Source of the DNA: Clostridiales bacterium 1_7_47FAA
Lineage (GTDB): Bacteria; Bacillota; Clostridia; Lachnospirales; Lachnospiraceae
DNA: 64,000 nucleotides
NCBI GenBank assembly: GCA_000155435.1
Contig: DS990260.1
Coordinates: 1,113,443-1,177,442 of the forward strand
Reading direction: 5' to 3'
Shown here: piece after piece, positions 9,289 through 51,898 of the stretch
Numbering within the stretch: position 1 is the stretch's first letter
Layout: each line of letters begins with the position of its first letter
Program-made: the position numbers and the translations under genes
The notes under the pieces: generated by a model
The model's input: only the letters and a program-made list of their open reading frames with translations
What the model was told of the DNA's origin: nothing
Databases searched by the model: none

Positions 9289-10287
9289 TTACCGTCTCCG
9301 CCTGTCAAAACGCCTTCCAGGATTCCTTTCGTCCTCATACCGGCCGCGTCCAAAACCATTGCCAAGGGGGCCATCCCCATGGAAATGCTCCCTGCGGCTG
9401 TGGCCGCGGCTTAATATATAATCATGCATTTCCTTCATCCTGCCAAATGTATAGTCAGAAGGATGCTCCGGATCCAAATGCCTTATGATTTCGTCTTCCA
9501 GGCGTTCCAAAAAACCTTTAAACTGCTTCTGCTCCTGATCATCAAAGCAGTCAAACAGGCGGTCCGTGTCCCTGCCGTCAAACCCATCCGCCTGTTCTAC
9601 CGCCCTGCGGCCTTCTTCCGTCAGTATGATATCCATACTCCGTCTGTCATGTTCACTTGGCACGCGCTTCACATAGCCCTTGTTCTCCAGCTTTCTTAAT
9701 AGTTCGCTCATGGACTGGGTACTGATTCCAAGAAGATAGGACAGTTCCCTGTGGCTTATCTCCGGCTTCAGCTTTAAGATTGCCAGGATCCGGCCCTGGC
9801 CTTTAAATGGGCTTCCCATGGGGCCATTTTCCTTGTAAGCCTCTGTCTGGTAGCGGTGTAAGAGCATTCCGATATGAAAGAAGTGTTCGGACAGGTTTTT
9901 TCCATTGTCCTTCTGCTCCTGGCCTATACCCTGGTCCCTATCACAGTCTGCGTCACAGTATGACCCCCGCTCCCCGTCATAGCCTGCATTCTGGCCCATT
10001 GGGGGTTCCATGCCATGTTCCTTTTTGACTTCCATGCCATGTTCCTTTTTTGGTTCTATGCCATGTTCCTTTTTGACTTCCATGCCATGTTCCTTTTTTG
10101 GTTCTATGTCATACTCCATGTCCTGCTTCCTGCTCTCATCTTCATTTCCCTTACTTATATTGCCCTCGCTCATATTTCCCTCATTCATATTGCCCTCGCT
10201 CATATTTCCCTCATTCATATTTCCCTCATTCATATTGCCTTCATCCATATTTCCTTCATTCATATTTCCCTCACTCATATAACCCAC
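9289..10287 (-). CDS. MarR-family regulator with repetitive N-terminal extension
   Basis: About 332 aa, more than twice the usual MarR length. The winged-helix domain spans roughly residues 130-260 (LSYLLGISTQSMSELLRKLE, then EHDRRSMDIILTEEG). The first 50 residues are about nine NMNEG-type pentapeptides, followed by four 8-residue KKEHGMEP-type units and an acidic/Cys linker. The C-terminus is His/Arg/Gly-rich. The start is GTG at 10287, because AAAGGAG ends 6 bases upstream; the TTG at 10291-10293 abuts the site directly. The ribosome site overlaps the stop of the DtxR-like gene, so it belongs to the metal operon. The His-, Met- and acid-rich tails could bind metal; this is inference. Confidence 0.88.
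   Translation of the reverse strand: MGYMSEGNMNEGNMDEGNMNEGNMNEGNMSEGNMNEGNMSEGNISKGNEDESRKQDMEYDIEPKKEHGMEVKKEHGIEPKKEHGMEVKKEHGMEPPMGQNAGYDGERGSYCDADCDRDQGIGQEQKDNGKNLSEHFFHIGMLLHRYQTEAYKENGPMGSPFKGQGRILAILKLKPEISHRELSYLLGISTQSMSELLRKLENKGYVKRVPSEHDRRSMDIILTEEGRRAVEQADGFDGRDTDRLFDCFDDQEQKQFKGFLERLEDEIIRHLDPEHPSDYTFGRMKEMHDYILSRGHSRREHFHGDGPLGNGFGRGRYEDERNPGRRFDRRRR
10009..10104 (-). repeat. 24-bp coding repeat (KKEHGM units) in the MarR gene
   Basis: Four tandem 24-bp units encoding 8 residues each, alternating EP and EV before KKEHG, so there is also a 48-bp higher-order period. The nearly perfect DNA identity suggests recent expansion. Confidence 0.9.
10144..10278 (-). repeat. 15-bp coding repeat (M-S/N-E-G-N units) in the MarR gene
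   Basis: Nine tandem 15-bp units encoding MSEGN, MNEGN, MDEGN or ISKGN. The unit count is likely to vary between strains by slippage in multiples of 15 bp, keeping the frame. Confidence 0.9.
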
Positions 10288-10299
10288 ATCCAACTCCTT

Positions 10300-10671
10300 T
10301 CATTCTGCCGCCTGTTCCATGATTCCCCTGATACCTATTATGGATTCAGGGCTTAAATAATGCTCTATCCTGCATGCGTCATGCTCCGCGACCTCTTCCG
10401 GGACTCCGATGCTGCACAGGAACCGTTTAAATGTTTCATAGGAATCGTTGATTTTAGACGCAATTGCATAACCATCTTCCGTCAGGTCAACCTCATGGTT
10501 TTCATGTACCTTAATCAGGTTCTCCGATGCCAGTTTACGGAACGCAATGGAAACGCTTGGTTTTTTGACGTCCAGTGCCGATGCCACATCAGTGGCCCGC
10601 ACATGCCCATTCTTATTTTTCAAATACAATATGGCCTTTAGATAATTCTCTTTTGAAACCGTGATGTTCAT
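10300..10671 (-). CDS. DtxR/MntR-family metal-dependent repressor
   Basis: 123-aa protein consisting of a winged helix (SKENYLKAILYLKNKNGHV, then VKKPSVSIAFRKLASENLI) and a short dimerisation/metal domain (EHDACRIEHYLSPES). It has no SH3-like third domain, so it is MntR-sized. The motifs E-H-D-A-C-R-x-E-H supply the usual metal ligands. It sits between a CDF exporter and the MarR gene in one operon. Two palindromes in the operon promoter are the likely targets, giving autoregulation. Metal identity (Mn or Fe) is inferred. Confidence 0.9.
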   Translation of the reverse strand: MNITVSKENYLKAILYLKNKNGHVRATDVASALDVKKPSVSIAFRKLASENLIKVHENHEVDLTEDGYAIASKINDSYETFKRFLCSIGVPEEVAEHDACRIEHYLSPESIIGIRGIMEQAAE

Positions 10672-10694
10672 GACTCACCCTTCTTATATTCCAG

Positions 10695-11585
10695 CTACCC
10701 CAGAATCTGTTCCATACTCAACGAAAAAACGGGACTCAGCCCAAGCGCCCTCAGTTCTCCTTCAATGCCGTCCATACATCCATTGACCTCCTCCTGGGAA
10801 CAGGATGGATTTACCGTAATCTGCAGCGACACAATCCTGCGCTCCGGCCCGTAATCGTGGAAATCAATCTGTTTTAATGTCACAAGTTCCTTCCTTGCGT
10901 CAAAAACCGCCTGAATCTGGGACTGCTGCTGTCCGGATATCCCCTCGCCCAGAAGCAGTGTGAAGTGACTGATGAATGACTGGAATCCATCCTTCATGAC
11001 CAGCACACTGATCATGATTCCCACAATCCAGTCCGCAGAAAGACCGGTCAGGGAATAAAGGGCCGCAGAACCAATGGTCAGCATGGTCATCTTGATGTCC
11101 GCTGCCTCATTCTGCTCACAGGCAGCCAGGGCCATGGAATCCAGCTCACGGTTCACATGTCTGGTATACGCCGACATACCGCACTTGACCAGGATGGACA
11201 GGAGGGATACCCCATAGACCAGAAGGGGCAATGAGCGGTCCCGCGGGTGCCGGATCCAGTGTATGGATTCCCGGAACATGGAAACTCCTGCCAGGATAAT
11301 GGTCATGGAAATAATGAGGCCAAGGACATATTCCACCCTGCCATGGCCATAAGGATGAAGGCTGTCCCCCTTGCGCCCGGACATCCTGAATCCCAGCAAT
11401 ACCAGCAGGGAGTTTAATGCATCCATCAGGTTATCATACCCTTCCGCCAGGACAGCCACATTCCCGCACGTGATTCCGGCCGTATACTTACAGGCAAAAA
11501 GCAGGAGGTTGCCGGCCGCGGACAATATCCCCACCCTGGCGCCCAGATTTTCCCTGGACATGGGCTGTGTCAGTGTTTGTTCCAT
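10695..11585 (-). CDS. Cation diffusion facilitator (probable Mn/Fe exporter)
   Basis: 296-aa CDF protein with six helices and a C-terminal cytoplasmic ferredoxin-like domain. It has the family motif HPYGHGRVEYVLGL after helix 2. The transport-site residues are Asp51-x3-Asp55 in helix 2 and Asn159-x3-Asp163 in helix 5, instead of the His-Asp pairs typical of zinc members. Substitution of His by Asp/Asn is the pattern linked to manganese (or iron) CDFs. The ATG at 11585 has AGAGGAG 8 bases upstream. It is the first gene of an operon with a DtxR/MntR-like repressor, in agreement with Mn or Fe export. Confidence 0.9.
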   Translation of the reverse strand: MEQTLTQPMSRENLGARVGILSAAGNLLLFACKYTAGITCGNVAVLAEGYDNLMDALNSLLVLLGFRMSGRKGDSLHPYGHGRVEYVLGLIISMTIILAGVSMFRESIHWIRHPRDRSLPLLVYGVSLLSILVKCGMSAYTRHVNRELDSMALAACEQNEAADIKMTMLTIGSAALYSLTGLSADWIVGIMISVLVMKDGFQSFISHFTLLLGEGISGQQQSQIQAVFDARKELVTLKQIDFHDYGPERRIVSLQITVNPSCSQEEVNGCMDGIEGELRALGLSPVFSLSMEQILG

Positions 11586-36478: not shown

Positions 36479-36669
36479 CTCTTTTCCTCCTGGCAGTATA
36501 TGTTATCTTAATTGTAAAATAACCGGATTGGGAAAGATAGTATCTGAATCCTTAATATTTATTGCATTCCTGTTGATGGTTGATGGATTCTATTGTATTC
36601 TGTATTTAACAAACCGGAACAGCCTCCGGAGGTGCCTCATAAAATAAAACGGTTAAGGAGAAATTAAAA

Positions 36670-45965: not shown

Positions 45966-47132
45966 TCAGTAAGCCCTGAGGGCAGCAGCGGCCAAATCCA
46001 CTTCCTCCGCTGTGTTAAAATGGGAAAAGCTGAACCTTACAGCCCCCTGTTCCCTGGTTCCCAGGGCTTCATGCATCAGAGGCGCGCAGTGCCCGCCTGA
46101 GCGGGTATAAATCCCATGCTCCTGTGCCAGGTAATCACTGACCTCACCCGAGTCTTCATCCCCCAGGTTCAGGGCCACGATGGCAGCCCTCTCCTGCTGT
46201 TCAAAATCCCCATATATACATACCCCGGGAATGGCGCTTACCTGGTCATGAAAACGGCGCATCAATGCCAGTTCCCTATCCCTTATGGTTCCATCGCCCT
46301 GCTCCCTGATATAGAGCAGCGCTGCCCTGAGTCCGGCCAGTCCGTGGGCATTGAGGGTGCCTGCCTCCAATGCAGTGGGCATGGAGGCGGGATGGGTTTT
46401 GGAGTAGGTCATGATGCCGCTTCCCCCCGACAGCAGGGGGCGCACCCGGATTCCTTTCCTGACGCATATCCCCCCGGTCCCCTGAGGCCCCATCAGCCCC
46501 TTATGCCCTGTAAAACACAGGATGTCTATATTATCCCGTTCCATATCAATGGAAAACACACCCGCTGTCTGGGACGCGTCCACCAGGAACAGGGCGCCCG
46601 CCTCCCGGCACCAGCCCCCAATCCTCCTGATATCCACCAGATTGCCGGTGAGATTAGAGGCATGGGTACATACCACGGCTTTGGTTCCCGGGGTAATGGC
46701 AGCCTTCAGGGCATCGTAATCCAACGCGCCCTTATGTCTTTCCTTTTCACTTCTCCCGCCCCGGTCCATTTCCCCGGTACAGCCAACCACCACCAGATCC
46801 ACGCCCTGGCGCTCCATCTCATAGAGGGGCCGCAGCACGCTGTTGTGTTCCAGCGCCGTGGTCACCACCCGGTCACCCGGATCCAGCACGCCTTTTATGG
46901 CAATATTCAGGCTCTCCGTGGAATTAGCCGTAAATGTAACCTGCTCCGGTCCGTCCCCATGGAACAGTCCGGACAGCAGGTCCCTTGTCTCATACACGGT
47001 CCTTGCGCTGGTCAGGGCTGTCTCATAGGTACCCCTGGAACAGTTTCCCATGGTGTTAATGGCCTCTGCCACTGCCTCCGCCACTGTCTTTGGCCTGTAA
47101 AAAGAAGTAGCCGCATTATCCAGATAAATCAT
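45966..47132 (-). CDS. Class V aminotransferase / selenocysteine lyase-type protein of the selenium locus
   Basis: 388 aa PLP enzyme of the cysteine desulfurase superfamily: Schiff-base Lys211 (FTGHKGLMGPQG), PLP contacts VCTHASNLTGN and VDASQTAG, and the sulfur/selenium-accepting Cys349 (RSGGHCAPL). The short loop before the Cys places it in group II (SufS/CsdB-like). Family members encoded with selD and yqeB are part of the selenium-dependent molybdenum hydroxylase set, where they probably deliver Se. Last gene of the selD operon. Confidence 0.92.
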   Translation of the reverse strand: MIYLDNAATSFYRPKTVAEAVAEAINTMGNCSRGTYETALTSARTVYETRDLLSGLFHGDGPEQVTFTANSTESLNIAIKGVLDPGDRVVTTALEHNSVLRPLYEMERQGVDLVVVGCTGEMDRGGRSEKERHKGALDYDALKAAITPGTKAVVCTHASNLTGNLVDIRRIGGWCREAGALFLVDASQTAGVFSIDMERDNIDILCFTGHKGLMGPQGTGGICVRKGIRVRPLLSGGSGIMTYSKTHPASMPTALEAGTLNAHGLAGLRAALLYIREQGDGTIRDRELALMRRFHDQVSAIPGVCIYGDFEQQERAAIVALNLGDEDSGEVSDYLAQEHGIYTRSGGHCAPLMHEALGTREQGAVRFSFSHFNTAEEVDLAAAALRAY

Positions 47133-47160: not shown

Positions 47161-47991
47161 TTAATGGCCCTGCTTCATCTCCAGCATCATCAGCCCTTCC
47201 ACCACGGAGCCCGCGATGCATCTGGCCTTGTCTGAAATGGTAAAGCAGTTCTCATACTCGCTCTTCCTCGGATCGATATCCGCTATCTTAAATCCCTTTA
47301 CCACTGGAAAACCATCCTTTATGATTCCCCTTAAAAGTCCGGTCAGGGAGGCCTCAACCGCCACCTCCCCCTGTCCGGTCACAACCGTCCCAATCAGCTG
47401 TCCTTTTTCCACCATGTCGCCAATCATTGTCTTTCCAAGGAAAATGCCTTTGGCCGGTGAATGGATGACCCGCTCCGCCCCAACGCCGCCGATGATTCCC
47501 GGTATGCCGGTATTGGGTTCGGCGCTGCCATTGCCGATGATCCGGCCCAGGTTATGCCCTCTCATGGTCTCTATCACAAGGTCCACATCCTGACCCGCGG
47601 TAAATCCAGGCCCCAGGCCAATGGTCTTATCCGCCATGTCACGGCTGGTTCCCAGATTCCGCTTGGCCAGTATGGCATCCACCACAGCCCATGGCCTTAC
47701 CTTGTCAAGGACCTGGCATTGCTCATCAATCATTACCGGGACAACCCCCTGTTCCATCATGGAACAGGCTTCCTCATAGCTGGAAACCTTGACACAGGCC
47801 ACACCCTCCACCTCGGCTGACCCGTCATACACTGCTTCCGAAAATGCCACGCACCTTCGGATGGCAGATGGGAAACCTGTCTCCAATATCAGCACCGGGT
47901 ATCCGCAGCGGTGAAGCCTGTGGATGGTTCCCGTTGCAATATCGCCTCCGCCCCTTACGATTACCAGCTGCTTTGTTCTGTCTGTCATCAT
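47161..47991 (-). CDS. yqeB: YqeB, selenium-dependent molybdenum hydroxylase accessory protein
   Basis: 276 aa with the characteristic N-terminal VIVRGGGDIATGTIHRLHRC Rossmann motif and the central GLGPGFTAGQDVDLVIET and GIIGGVGAERVI. This family (EF2563/YqeB) is found almost only with SelD in genomes that have selenium-containing molybdenum hydroxylases, and it is thought to act in making the Se-Mo cofactor. Lies between YedF and the class V aminotransferase. Confidence 0.92.
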   Translation of the reverse strand: MMTDRTKQLVIVRGGGDIATGTIHRLHRCGYPVLILETGFPSAIRRCVAFSEAVYDGSAEVEGVACVKVSSYEEACSMMEQGVVPVMIDEQCQVLDKVRPWAVVDAILAKRNLGTSRDMADKTIGLGPGFTAGQDVDLVIETMRGHNLGRIIGNGSAEPNTGIPGIIGGVGAERVIHSPAKGIFLGKTMIGDMVEKGQLIGTVVTGQGEVAVEASLTGLLRGIIKDGFPVVKGFKIADIDPRKSEYENCFTISDKARCIAGSVVEGLMMLEMKQGH

Positions 47992-48052: not shown

Positions 48053-48784
48053 CTATGGACGCACCAGAAGCCTGGCTCCTGTCATGCGTTCCACAATCTC
48101 ATACATATTTGTAACACTGCCCACCTTCAGCTTATCTGCCAGTCCATAGTGGTTTAAACAGGTGCCGCAGGTAAGTATTTCCACGCCCTGGGCCTCCAGA
48201 TTCTTTAAATCCTCCACATTGTCCGAGCCTTCGCAGGACAGATATGCGCCGCTGTTATATAAAAGTACGGTTTCCGGCAGGCTGTCCTGCTCGGTCAGGG
48301 CGTATACAAACCCCTTCATGAGAAGCTTCCCAAGGGTCCCGTCCCCCTGCCCCATCAGATTTGAGGACAGGACCACCACCATGCCTTTCCTGCGGCAGTC
48401 AGGCTGGCAGACGGTATCCTGGGCGTCTCTGGTATCCCCTGCATCGGAGCCGGTTCCCGTTCCTGAACCAGCCCCGTCATCCGGGCCAATTCCAGCCCCT
48501 GAAACAATTCCGTCATCCGGGCCAATTCCAGTCCCCAATCCAGCCCCGTCCGTTTTTTCCGGCCCTGCTGCGCCCGCCGTTATCCTCACCTGGAATTCCC
48601 TGTCGCCGGCCTTTTCATAGGAGGACTTAAGTCCCTTATGGTCCGCCATCTTGCGCAGGTTCTGGACCGCTATCTCATTGTCAACCACCACTTCCACTAC
48701 TTCCCCTGCATGACAGCGCTCCAATGCCTTCTTTGTATCGATAACAGGAAGCGGACACTGTTTGCCGCGTTCATCTAATCTCAT
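48053..48784 (-). CDS. yedF: YedF-type selenium metabolism protein (TusA + DsrE-like domains)
   Basis: 243 aa. The N-terminal TusA/SirA domain has the CPLPV motif (Cys10 region) for carrying persulfide or selenide. A Gly/Asp-rich linker with repeated IGPDDG units follows (about 85-125). The C-terminal DsrE-like domain starts MVVVLSSNLMGQGDG and contains ILTCGTCLNHYGL. This two-domain protein is the standard selD neighbour. The ATG at 48784 has AAGGA at 4-5 bases; an ATG 12 bases upstream overlaps another AAAGGA. Confidence 0.92.
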   Translation of the reverse strand: MRLDERGKQCPLPVIDTKKALERCHAGEVVEVVVDNEIAVQNLRKMADHKGLKSSYEKAGDREFQVRITAGAAGPEKTDGAGLGTGIGPDDGIVSGAGIGPDDGAGSGTGTGSDAGDTRDAQDTVCQPDCRRKGMVVVLSSNLMGQGDGTLGKLLMKGFVYALTEQDSLPETVLLYNSGAYLSCEGSDNVEDLKNLEAQGVEILTCGTCLNHYGLADKLKVGSVTNMYEIVERMTGARLLVRP

Positions 48785-48817
48785 ATTTTCCTTCATCCTT
48801 TCTTCACATGTACTGTT

Positions 48818-49843
48818 TTATTTAACAGTAACTGCCTTTTCTTCCCTTGGCCGGATTTCCCCTACAATGGCGCAGGGCAGGCCCAGCTTCCGGATTTCCT
48901 CCAGGGCCGGGGCCGCATCCTCCCTGTCCATGGATACCAGCAGCCCTCCCGAGGTCTGGGGGTCGAAGAGGATTTCCTCCAGGGCAAAACCACAGCCTGC
49001 AAATTCCACCTTATCACCCACATGGTTCCGGTTGCGCTGGGCGGCGGCGGTCAGGTAGAACTCCTCCACATACGCCTCACACTCCGGTATGAAAGGAATG
49101 CTGTCCCTGTAAATCAGGGCCGAATAGCTGTCCCCCAGCATCTCGCAAAGATGTCCGAGGAAACCAAAACCAGTCACGTCCGTGCATCCATGCACCCTGT
49201 ACCTTCGCACAATTTCAGAGGCATACTTGTTAAGGCTGGTCATGGATCTGACTGCCAGGTCCATGGCTGCATCCGATGCCTCACCCATCCGGGAAGCCGT
49301 GCATACGATTCCCACGCCCAGGGGCTTGGTAAGGATTAAAAGGTCGCCCTCCTTACATCCGCTGTTGGCAAATACCTTGTCCGGATGTATGGTTCCTGTT
49401 ACCGAAAGGCCATACTTCACATCCGAATCAGCAATGGAATGGCCTCCTGCCAGCACTCCCCCTGCCTCCCTTACCTTCTCACTTCCTCCAAGAAGGATCT
49501 GGCCAAGGATGTTTAAATCCATGGCTTCCGGGAAACAGACAATGTTAAGGGCCGTCTTCACATCGCCTCCCATGGCATAGATATCGCTCAGCGCATTGGC
49601 CGCGGCTATCTGCCCGAATATATATGGATCCTCCACCATGGGCGGGAAAAAGTCCAGGGTCTGTACCATGGCCAGGTCATCTGTCAGCCTGTAGACAGCC
49701 GCATCATCCGAGCCTTCATACCCAATCAGGAGATTGGGGTCCTTTGTCTTGGGTATCTTCTCCAATACCTTTGCAAGGGCTCCCGGCCCCAGTTTCGCCG
49801 TGCACCCTCCGCCTCTGCAGAATACAATCTCTTCCTGTCCCAC
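48818..49843 (-). CDS. selD: Selenide, water dikinase SelD
   Basis: 341 aa; makes selenophosphate from selenide and ATP. The catalytic N-terminal motif is GGGCTAK with Cys14 and Lys17, so it is the Cys form, with no in-frame TGA. AIRS-type ATP-binding motifs follow: [24 protein letters not shown] and [12 protein letters not shown]. The start is GTG at 49843, 7 bases after AGGAGG; a longer reading overlaps the regulator gene. No selA, selB or tRNA-Sec is seen here, so its product probably feeds the molybdenum hydroxylases. Confidence 0.95.
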
Positions 49844-49857
49844 GTTCCTTCCTCCTG

Positions 49858-50235
49858 TCAGTTCGATGATTTCTTTAATTCCTCTACCCATTCCTGTGAA
49901 AAATGCTTCTCAAACAGCCGGTCCAGCTCCTGTCTGCTCTCCTTCATGAAAGCATCGTAAGCCTCCAGGAGACTGACTGCCTGGGGCGTAAGGGTGGAAC
50001 CGCCTCCATCCCTTCCCCCTGTCTCCCGCTCAGTCAGCATGAAGCCCCAGGCCTTTTCCGACTCCTTTAACATCTTCCATGCCTTGCTGTAGGCCATGTT
50101 CATGGACTGGGCAGCGCCCTGGAGGGACCCAGTTTCCTCAATCCCCCGCAGCAAAGTTGACATCCCCGGACCAAATGCCTTATTGTCAAAATACAATTTC
50201 AGTGATATGCCGTAATGAAGCTGGTTCTGATTCAT
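49858..50235 (-). CDS. ModE/LysR-type winged-helix regulator
   Basis: 125 aa, a stand-alone ModE N-terminal-like domain: [22 protein letters not shown] is the helix-turn-helix, followed by [14 protein letters not shown] in the wing. It lacks the molybdate-binding TOBE domains. First gene of the selD operon and directly downstream of the structured leader. It may link molybdenum or selenium status to transcription. Confidence 0.9.
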
Positions 50236-50265
50236 TTCCTGGCCCCTCTCTTGGTTATGTTTTCA

Positions 50266-50372
50266 AAAGAATAACGTTTCCCAAACAAAAAAGCCACTCC
50301 GACCATACCAAATACAATGGCTGCCACTGGCTTTTACGATTACCTGCATAAAGCTCCAAACTGCTATTCTTC
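50266..50372 (-). ncRNA. Structured leader RNA A (candidate riboswitch, selD operon)
   Basis: Starting at 50369 on the minus strand, GAATAGC pairs with GTTATTC (50275-50269) to enclose about 95 nt. Just inside it is CAGTTTGGAGCTTT, identical in leader B. A central hairpin AAAAGCCA / TGGCTTTT contains CCAT/ATGG and ends in a T run. A promoter lies 15 nt upstream, and the first gene of the selD operon follows. The structure does not match any riboswitch class I can name. Confidence 0.75.
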
Positions 50373-50382
50373 CGCTGCTTTT

Positions 50383-50410
50383 ATTATAGCAGATTCGCCT
50401 GGATATGCAA
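50383..50410 (-). promoter_or_regulatory. Promoter of the selD operon
   Basis: On the minus strand TTGCAT (50410-50405), 16 nt, TATAAT (50388-50383). Transcription would begin about 5-8 nt before leader A. It lies just after the stop codon of the TusA-like gene. Confidence 0.65.
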
Positions 50411-50424
50411 ATGGTTTTTCCAGA

Positions 50425-50643
50425 TCAGCCCTGTATGATGATTTCAAAATCCTTTCCTCTCATCCCAACCCTGCAGTCCCGCTTATACTCCCCTGCCAGC
50501 TTCACGATATTATCCCTGGTGTGGGCCGCATCTGCCAGCACGGCCAGGTCCTGCCCCGGATCGGCATCCATCTCATCCATCACGATCAGTACCGGCTCCG
50601 GGCAGGACAGTCCCCTTACATCAATCTCCTTCATCTCCTTCAT
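50425..50643 (-). CDS. TusA/SirA-family sulfur or selenium carrier
   Basis: 72 aa with the family motif CPEPVL; the single Cys14 is the persulfide/selenide carrier. AAGGAGG is about 7 bases before the ATG. It lies 15 bp downstream of the YedE gene, forming a transporter-carrier pair. Confidence 0.93.
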   Translation of the reverse strand: MKEMKEIDVRGLSCPEPVLIVMDEMDADPGQDLAVLADAAHTRDNIVKLAGEYKRDCRVGMRGKDFEIIIQG

Positions 50644-50658
50644 TCCATCTCCTCCTTA

Positions 50659-51720
50659 CTACTTATCCGATTTCCGTTTACAGCTAAAACCAATGATGAA
50701 CAGCACCGCAATACATACGACGCACATGATCCTTCCGGCAGGCGTGGTACCCGTACCGCTGGAAGCCAGCCCAAAGTTATGGCAGAAGGCAGCGCCTGCA
50801 GACATCCCCAGTACATTGACGGCCGCATCCCCGGAACCTTGTCCAGCCAGGATCAGCTGCCTCAAAGGACATCCTCCTGCCAGCACCGCGGCAAAGCCGA
50901 CCACATACATTCCCGCCATGTTCCACAGCGCCTCGGTATGCGCCACTGGCTGTCCTGCAAATCCCGGTTTAAATCCTCCTGTTGCAAGGTTATAAACCAT
51001 CATCACGGCAAACAGGCCGATAATGACCGTCAGCAGGTCAAAATTCTTCATGAGGATCACATCCCTGATGCCTCCTGCAAAACAGGTCCTTGACCGCTGT
51101 GCCGCCGCGCCGAATATGAGGCCGCCTGCCAGGGATGCCGCCACAGGCGCATGCATGCTCCCAGGGCCTTCGGTACTTGCCGCAAACAGCGGTGTCAGGA
51201 TGCTCAGCAGAAGCAGGACCGCCAGAATGGCAGGAAGGATATAGCCGCTTTCCTTTCTTGTATCATAGGCCCGCCCCAGGCTGAATCCCTTTTTCAGGAA
51301 AAAGCACCCTGTGGCTGCCCCCAGCACAAAACCGGCCAGACCCACATATGCGTTCCAGTCACCGGCAGCCATCCTGAGCACCATGCGCAGCGGACATCCC
51401 AGGAATATAAGGGCCCCTATCATGGTCACCATGCCAAGAAGGAACCGTATCATGGGCGATGAACCGGATGTGGAACGGTATTCCTTTCCCAGCAGGGATA
51501 TGACAAAGGAGCCTGCCACCAGACCTGCAATCTCCGGTCTCATGTACTGGACCACCCCAGCCGTGTGCAGCTTACATGCGCCTGCGATATCCCGGATAAA
51601 GCATGCGATGCAAAATGCCATGTTCCCCGGGTTTCCCATGAATGCCAGCGCGGCAGCCACCAGCCCCAATATGCCTCCCCATAGTAACAGCCCTGTTTTT
51701 GAGTTCCATTTCCCCTCCAT
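50659..51720 (-). CDS. yedE: YedE/YeeE-family transporter (putative selenium importer)
   Basis: 353 aa with about ten helices. The two halves each have a conserved Cys-containing loop (GNMAFCIACFIRD and QRSRTCFAGGIRD) and a GCPLR motif (FLGCPLRMVLR; AGGCPLRQL). These are the hallmarks of the YeeE/YedE family, whose relatives import thiosulfate. The YedE subgroup is co-located with selD and yedF and is the presumed selenium transporter. The ATG at 51720 has GGAGG upstream; the earlier ATG at 51738 has none. It is preceded by leader RNA B. Confidence 0.92.
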   Translation of the reverse strand: MEGKWNSKTGLLLWGGILGLVAAALAFMGNPGNMAFCIACFIRDIAGACKLHTAGVVQYMRPEIAGLVAGSFVISLLGKEYRSTSGSSPMIRFLLGMVTMIGALIFLGCPLRMVLRMAAGDWNAYVGLAGFVLGAATGCFFLKKGFSLGRAYDTRKESGYILPAILAVLLLLSILTPLFAASTEGPGSMHAPVAASLAGGLIFGAAAQRSRTCFAGGIRDVILMKNFDLLTVIIGLFAVMMVYNLATGGFKPGFAGQPVAHTEALWNMAGMYVVGFAAVLAGGCPLRQLILAGQGSGDAAVNVLGMSAGAAFCHNFGLASSGTGTTPAGRIMCVVCIAVLFIIGFSCKRKSDK

Positions 51721-51752
51721 TGTTTTCTTTTCCTCCATTCGTTATTTTCTAA

Positions 51753-51858
51753 AAAGAATAACGCTTTCAATAAATAAAACCGGTCTGACCAACTCAGGAC
51801 TGTGGTCAAAACCGGCTTTTTCAGAATTTGTGCGCAAAGCTCCAAACTGTTATTCCTT
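51753..51858 (-). ncRNA. Structured leader RNA B (candidate riboswitch, yedE operon)
   Basis: Starting at 51855 on the minus strand, GAATAAC pairs with GTTATTC (51762-51756). It shares CAGTTTGGAGCTTT, AAAAGCC and CGTTATTCTTTT with leader A at the same relative positions. The central hairpin is instead AAGCCGGT / ACCGGTTT with TGACCA/TGGTCA, so paired positions changed together. The expected transcript starts only about 5 nt before it. Confidence 0.75.
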
Positions 51859-51869
51859 TTATGGAGACA

Positions 51870-51898
51870 AATATACCATAAAATGCCATTTCAGTCAA
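51870..51898 (-). promoter_or_regulatory. Promoter of the yedE operon
   Basis: On the minus strand TTGACT (51898-51893), 17 nt, TATATT (51875-51870). It places the RNA start at the base of leader B. Confidence 0.7.

Follow-up and report, generated by a model that had tools for sequence, protein, structure and literature searches.

The molybdenum cofactor (Moco) riboswitch is located before molybdenum-related genes, and to our knowledge little is known about the control of the selenium-dependent molybdenum hydroxylase branch in bacteria. At the DNA level, the ModE operators of Escherichia coli and Geobacter lie before moeA- and modA-type genes; the E. coli consensus is given as ATCGNTATATA-N6-TATATANCGAT, and the single-domain ModE regulators of Desulfovibrio, which consist of the DNA-binding domain alone and whose sensing mechanism is unclear, are predicted to use a box of the form CGGTCACG-N14-CGTGACCG (both from sections of PMC545781). 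The selenium regulators LysR_Se and HrsM are encoded by LysR-type helix-turn-helix (HTH) genes beside selenium genes (sections of PMC5322559), and a review describes PurR, GalR, CcpA and CodY as repressors that bind downstream of the transcription start and act as roadblocks (sections of PMC10310618). Here we analyze a window of 64,000 nucleotides from Clostridiales bacterium 1_7_47FAA, a relative of Clostridium clostridioforme (assembly GCA_000155435.1, contig DS990260.1, positions 1,113,443 to 1,177,442), in which a ModE-like-selD-yedF-yqeB-lyase unit and a yedE-tusA unit are each preceded by a leader of about 100 bases. With modest confidence, we favor a reading in which a promoter, an attenuator-like hairpin and a ModE-type operator work jointly in each leader, with a predicted protein that would block RNA polymerase at the hairpin.

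A ModE-type palindrome downstream of a hairpin with a U-rich tail

A first-pass annotation of this stretch had reported two matching structured leaders ahead of the selenium units. Both are present and have GAATARCAGTTTGGAGCTTT and CGTTATTCTTTT in common; they were located where that annotation had placed them, except that it gave plus-strand numbers to what are minus-strand elements. It had also ended each leader at CGTTATTCTTTT, which is wrong, as these letters form the first half of a palindromic sequence, which it had missed. The sequence runs on as CGTTATTCTTTTTAGAAAATAACG in leader 2, where the palindrome is perfect, and as CGTTATTCTTTTGAAAACATAACC in leader 1, where it has one mismatch, so that CGTTATTC, previously regarded as the 3' strand of a stem, makes up the left half of the 24-bp palindromic sequence CGTTAT-N12-ATAACG. 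Compared with the pattern CGNTAT-N12-ATANCG for a ModE operator, leader 2 has no mismatch and leader 1 has one, and the core and spacing equal those of the E. coli operator as given in the pertinent sections of PMC545781.

Across the 17 genomes of the genus, perfect palindromes of this kind occur 34 times, against 2 for a backwards control, and 27 of the 34 precede molybdenum or selenium genes. The genes behind them are moeA (15), modA-like (4 by BLAST and 1, at locus L235, by sequence likeness), yedE (4), modE-like (2), a Se/S carrier (1, by Pfam) and other or unclear genes (7). The exact pattern CGTTAT-N12-ATAAC occurs at four places in the source organism's own genome: in each of the two leaders, at a gene for a modA-like binding protein, where it lies over the -35 element, and at moeA, where it lies just before the Shine-Dalgarno sequence. 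A further box with one mismatch (L125:2216-2239) lies about 5 kb past the end of the window, ahead of genes for a Se/S carrier (PF11823) and a xanthine dehydrogenase, and this locus is likely a further member of what, by sequence, appears to be a ModE-type regulon. Because the same operator also precedes moeA and modA with no such leader seen there, conservation of the 3' stem strand needs no riboswitch. A box of this type shared by moeA and modA, by the ModE-like-selD unit and yedE, and by the Se/S carrier-xanthine dehydrogenase locus predicts a single regulon for molybdenum and selenium supply.

At the selenium units, the palindrome stands in a nearly constant setting. We compared 13 leaders of selenium units (9 before modE-like genes and 4 before yedE), named below by genome and first gene, and for these leaders alone the ends of the hairpin arms were set by hand. 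In all 13, the 3' arm of a hairpin ends 12-16 nt before the box, with 6-7 T among the first 8 bases past that arm; thus each has, between promoter and gene, the hairpin and U-tract expected of an intrinsic terminator or attenuator. This spacing is also held where the hairpin sequences are unrelated (G208 modE, G119 modE and the second hairpin of G200), and the layout is kept in two leaders that lack both the closing stem and the TTGGAGC motif discussed below (G208 modE and G119 modE). The sigma-A-type promoter that the annotation had placed just upstream of each leader is there; both promoters have a TGn extended -10, and TGn precedes the -10 in all 13 leaders. An automatic search that required a hairpin energy under -12 and five or more T found such a hairpin in 9 of the 13 selenium leaders, whereas 20 moeA/modA boxes gave none (p 8.5e-7 by a rank test, with rows that are not independent; L218, L221, L205, L212, L229, L230, L231, L125 and the second box in L126 were omitted from the test). 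Hairpin-to-box distances from the automatic and hand-set arms differ in G208 yedE (4 versus 14 nt), G207 yedE (14 versus 12) and G200 (16 versus 14).

The first gene of unit 1 encodes a protein of 125 residues, of which residues 10-106 match the HTH of ModE (1b9m, E 1.3e-9). The gene content read earlier from the open reading frames was correct: a ModE-type HTH protein, SelD, YedF, YqeB and a cysteine-desulfurase-like lyase in one unit, and YedE and TusA in the other. The observations that carry the favored reading are thus that all 13 leaders combine promoter-like sites, a hairpin and a palindrome at nearly constant spacing, that molybdenum genes are preceded by the same palindrome and that a gene for a ModE-type HTH protein heads one of the units.

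A proposed roadblock-assisted attenuator and the points against it

In the mechanism that we propose, each selenium unit would be transcribed from the upstream extended -10 promoter, the leader RNA would form the attenuator-like hairpin with its U-rich tail, and a ModE-family protein would sit on the palindrome 12-16 bp past the hairpin. The bound protein would hold polymerase at the hairpin and thereby raise termination, as a roadblock-assisted attenuator, and both units would follow the molybdenum or selenium-cofactor status of the cell. Judged by sequence, a ModE-family protein likely binds the palindrome; termination at the hairpin, its increase by bound protein and the releasing signal are likewise steps that we infer. 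Both units are likely under common control by a molybdenum- or selenium-linked signal, and a DNA-binding protein acting at both likely couples the use of selenium to the supply of molybdenum. Taken together, the leaders probably represent a composite device, a ModE-type operator joined to an attenuator-like leader, found so far in one genus. In the part of the genus that has them, the conserved TTGGAGC segment and the closing stem (P1, below) probably constitute a further RNA layer. If the operator arms a terminator 12-16 nt upstream, this would be a compact control device of which operator-only or riboswitch-only searches each see half.

This arrangement shares features with each of the described systems. 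As in the ModE regulons of E. coli and Geobacter, the box precedes moeA- and modA-type genes; unlike in those regulons, it is also found at selenium units, 75-139 nt past the estimated transcription start and behind a hairpin, and the protein of the leader unit has an HTH only. In this last respect it resembles the single-domain Desulfovibrio regulators, from which it differs in having an E. coli-type box (compared with sections of PMC545781). With PurR, CcpA and CodY it shares an operator downstream of the transcription start, and it differs from them in the intrinsic-terminator-like hairpin that ends shortly before the operator (sections of PMC10310618). Like LysR_Se and HrsM, it has a gene for an HTH protein beside selenium genes, here a 125-aa protein of ModE type rather than a LysR-type one (sections of PMC5322559). 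Among the matches listed from the open-licence PMC literature, we found nothing on such a leader, on ModE control of selenium genes or on a roadblock coupled in this way to an intrinsic terminator. The sections of PMC11448449 that were available mention neither ModE nor a riboswitch, and YtgR was rejected as a precedent, as attenuation there works via the level of the regulator (sections of PMC7755916).

Several results weigh against the proposed mechanism. Some concern the hairpin: a terminator scan with loops limited to 3-8 lists neither hairpin of the window, and the fold of leader 1 is barely more stable than those of its shuffles (closing stem included, z -1.34 and 18/200 shuffles as good; stem excluded, z +0.65 and 147/200), whereas leader 2 folds more stably than its shuffles (z -4.21 with the stem, 0/200; z -2.65 without it, 4/200). 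A roadblock at 12-16 nt may also halt polymerase just before the U-tract rather than within it. In a class-wide search, a T-run followed by a perfect box occurs in 7 of 391 genomes, against 34 for the backwards control by our own count; the layout is not widespread and yields no general rule.

Others concern the regulator and its box. The 125-aa protein scores 63.3 bits against TIGR00637, below the curated cut-off of 98.5, and hence is called ModE-like only; it matches an HTH alone, with no molybdate-binding domain. Three more ModE-type HTH matches occur in the same genome, and any of these proteins could bind instead; two of them (L126:1274-2236 and 10140-11081) are MobA-like nucleotidyltransferase domains fused to a LysR/ModE-type HTH, and both fusions lie within a molybdenum-cofactor gene cluster. 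With up to one mismatch allowed, the 23-mer occurs 68 times in this genome, against 97 for the backwards control, and is therefore not above chance, so the argument for the operator rests on its position and on the wider count.

Outside the genus, three of the five ModE-like genes with selD behind them (L129, L144 and L150) lack any box within 450 nt even when 2 mismatches are allowed, and the other two (L138 and L143, from other genera of the family) carry the box at the promoter. The palindromes at L138 and L143 are of the CGTTGTAG type (2 and 1 mismatches), stand right after the -10 and represent operators with no leader hairpin. At L002, a yedE gene from another genus, a perfect box lies about 100 nt before the gene, with no U-rich hairpin recognized by eye. 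Finally, the operator model leaves the invariant TTGGAGCTT and the closing stem unexplained.

Alternative readings of the leader RNA

The first-pass annotation had proposed the leaders as a candidate new riboswitch, with one ligand, plausibly a selenium or molybdenum species, controlling both units; in this reading the closing stem, P1, would enclose a domain made of TTGGAGCTT and the hairpin. We searched the 17 genus genomes for AATARCAGTTTGGAGC, allowing 2 mismatches, and inspected the places found, which yielded seven more leaders; these and the two of the window form alignment A1 and the covariance model R1 (of the 13 leaders, G200, G208 modE, G119 modE and G208 yedE were left out). R1 gave 11 matches in 9 of the 17 genomes, seven before a modE-like gene and four before yedE, so that every match precedes a gene of these two kinds, as the riboswitch idea would have it. 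Nine of these matches built the model; the two from outside its training set are G208 yedE (55.3 bits) and G200 modE (41.8 bits). Rfam returned no family in the window at gathering scores, in line with the annotation, which had recognized no named RNA class in the leaders, and unlike what would be expected of a Moco riboswitch. At relaxed thresholds, STnc390 reached 19.8 bits on leader 1, far below its gathering score of 50, and RMST_10 reached 19.8 bits on the other strand over leader 2, with a gathering score of 55.

The pairing claimed for the closing stem is feasible, as only 2/1000 (leader 1) and 1/1000 (leader 2) shuffles of the 5' part pair equally well, and base pairs of the central hairpin do change on both sides across species, in line with the covariation that the annotation had read from the two leaders. 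TTGGAGCTT is unchanged in 11 of 11 leaders of a second alignment, A2, two divergent ones included, and P1 is predicted strongly in 8 of the 13 leaders (at most 40/1000 shuffles as good). The best single hint of RNA function is the divergent G208 yedE leader, where P1 is retained with new letters on both strands (CGCAG/CUGCG); these letters also disrupt the half-site that the 5' strand of P1 might otherwise provide in DNA. In a further alignment, A3, the covariation score was reached by 0/500 shuffles, on rows that are related and were fitted to the model; because A3 also includes one leader twice, the second time truncated, as well as the doubtful L102, its counts of covarying pairs are inflated and lean to the model.

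Against this, P1 is not seen in three leaders that keep the promoter, hairpin and operator (G200, 763/1000 shuffles as good; G208 modE, 165; G119 modE, 862), is weak in a fourth (G203, 661/1000) and borderline in a fifth (G210, 54/1000); TTGGAGCTT is missing from G208 modE and G119 modE. The 3' strand of P1 is accounted for as half of the operator. P1 would form only after the hairpin and U-tract have been transcribed and would therefore be unable to steer that terminator in the same pass. The element is also confined to one genus among the 17 genus and 397 family genomes searched, since R1, run with stricter filters on the latter, matched only the organism's own genome. When named genomes were scanned for the exact 5' motif, 12 matches turned up on 11 stretches; five of them (in L175, L180, L182 and L185) are leaders of this kind, from citroniae (two), clostridioforme, sp. 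1001271st1_H5 and UC5.1-1D2, and of the seven other stretches R1 was run on L177 only, with no match. yedE was matched in 32 of 200 family genomes, and among the 30 loci compared, the motif was not found in the 29 besides the organism's own.

What survives of the claim is that a homologous element stands at both units and that their control is likely shared; that a single ligand-sensing RNA accounts for this is weakened. A riboswitch is thus possible at these leaders, and in the specific form proposed we consider it doubtful. We find it equally doubtful that the sequence is read twice, with CGTTATTC serving as half of a ModE operator in DNA and as the closing strand of P1 around TTGGAGCTT and the hairpin in RNA, such that a selenium- or molybdenum-sensing fold would compete with the operator's own hairpin; were this true, a metalloregulator and a riboswitch would share one sequence at two selenium units.

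We also considered a leader-peptide attenuator, in which GGAG and an ATG would start a mini-ORF that reaches the foot or interior of the hairpin and the position of the ribosome would decide termination. An ATG does lie 4-8 nt past GGAG in 10 of the 11 leaders with TTGGAGC, and in G201 yedE, G208 yedE and G200 the mini-ORF has 3-4 codons and stops at the base of the first hairpin. The yedE leader of the window itself has no ATG there, the peptides are not alike, the frame in G209 is shifted by a change in length and the motif is missing from 2 of the 13 leaders, so the ORF is not conserved as such an attenuator requires and we regard this mechanism as improbable. Just as improbable, in our estimate, is that the box is an ordinary operator within a merely long leader and the hairpin incidental: the moeA and modA boxes presumably function with no such hairpins, yet the hairpin, U-rich tail and spacing are kept in all 13 selenium leaders, in some with unrelated hairpin sequences. 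We give least credence to a separate small RNA composed of promoter, seed and terminator, with the operons starting at a second promoter that overlaps the ModE box; the conserved 5' segment ahead of a variable hairpin does resemble a small RNA, and several leaders have, by eye, a TTG 18 nt before an ATAAC-type -10 within the box, but such a promoter is unlikely because, also by eye, its start would fall within the Shine-Dalgarno sequence of most leaders, and G208 modE and G119 modE have no -35 for it.

Features of the window and related loci

The features of the two units in the favored reading, a ModE-type operator behind an attenuator-like hairpin, are collected in Table 1.

Table 1. Leaders, promoters and genes of the two selenium units, in window coordinates
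Feature	Position	Strand	Details
Promoter of leader 1	50383..50411	-	TTTGCA, 17 nt, TATAAT; TGC preceding -10
Leader 1, ahead of ModE-like-selD-yedF-yqeB-lyase unit	50253..50376	-	Start estimated about 7 nt past -10; model R1 111.9 bits at 50370-50253
P1 5' strand, leader 1	50358..50374	-	Possible closing stem; CGGAAGAATAGC, bulged A, GTTT
TTGGAGCTT in leader 1	50351..50359	-	Invariant in 11/11 leaders of alignment A2
Terminator-like hairpin, leader 1	50289..50335	-	AAAAGCCA...TGGCTTTT; U-rich tail 50292-50287
ModE-type operator (predicted), leader 1	50253..50276	.	1 mismatch; minus strand CGTTATTCTTTTGAAAACATAACC; 16 nt past hairpin; left half within P1 3' strand
Gene for ModE-type HTH-only protein, 125 aa	49858..50235	-	TIGR00637 63.3 bits (cut-off 98.5); 1b9m HTH E 1.3e-9
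selD	48818..49891	-	TIGR00476
yedF	48053..48796	-	TIGR03527
yqeB	47161..47991	-	TIGR03309
Cysteine desulfurase/selenocysteine-lyase-like gene	45966..47132	-	TIGR01977
Promoter of leader 2	51870..51898	-	TTGACT, 17 nt, TATATT; TGG preceding -10
Leader 2, ahead of yedE-tusA unit	51740..51863	-	Start estimated; model R1 110.1 bits at 51856-51740
P1 5' strand, leader 2	51849..51860	-	AAAAGGAATAAC
TTGGAGCTT in leader 2	51837..51845	-	Alignment A2
Terminator-like hairpin, leader 2	51776..51820	-	AAAAGCCGGT...ACCGGTTTT with U-rich tail
ModE-type operator (predicted), leader 2	51740..51763	.	Perfect palindrome; 16 nt past hairpin
yedE, putative selenium transporter	50659..51738	-	TIGR04112; likelier start ATG 51720, behind GGAGG
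tusA-like	50425..50643	-	PF01206

A ModE-type palindrome with two mismatches also lies at 36501-36524 of the window, where shuffles give a chance expectation of 1.18 such sites. Letters resembling AACAGTTTGGAG stand right after -10-like elements of other genes of the genus (L040, L048, L041, L051 and L056), with no tie to the leaders established.

The organism's genome has a second yedE (G000:C107:561470-562546, L254), 66% identical, which sits behind a cysteine-desulfurase-like gene. Neither this copy nor six further copies in the genus has a box within 400 nt at up to 2 mismatches, and TTGGAGC was not found upstream of it or of the six other genus copies checked. The yedE behind the G207 leader (G207:C24:22961-24030; L250, L255 and L257) was matched in pieces, with stops in its frames, and may be a broken gene or reflect sequencing errors. 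On eight loci with related leaders, Rfam identified only an RNase P RNA gene, at L232:947-1302, which lies on the opposite strand a short way before the G208 yedE leader.
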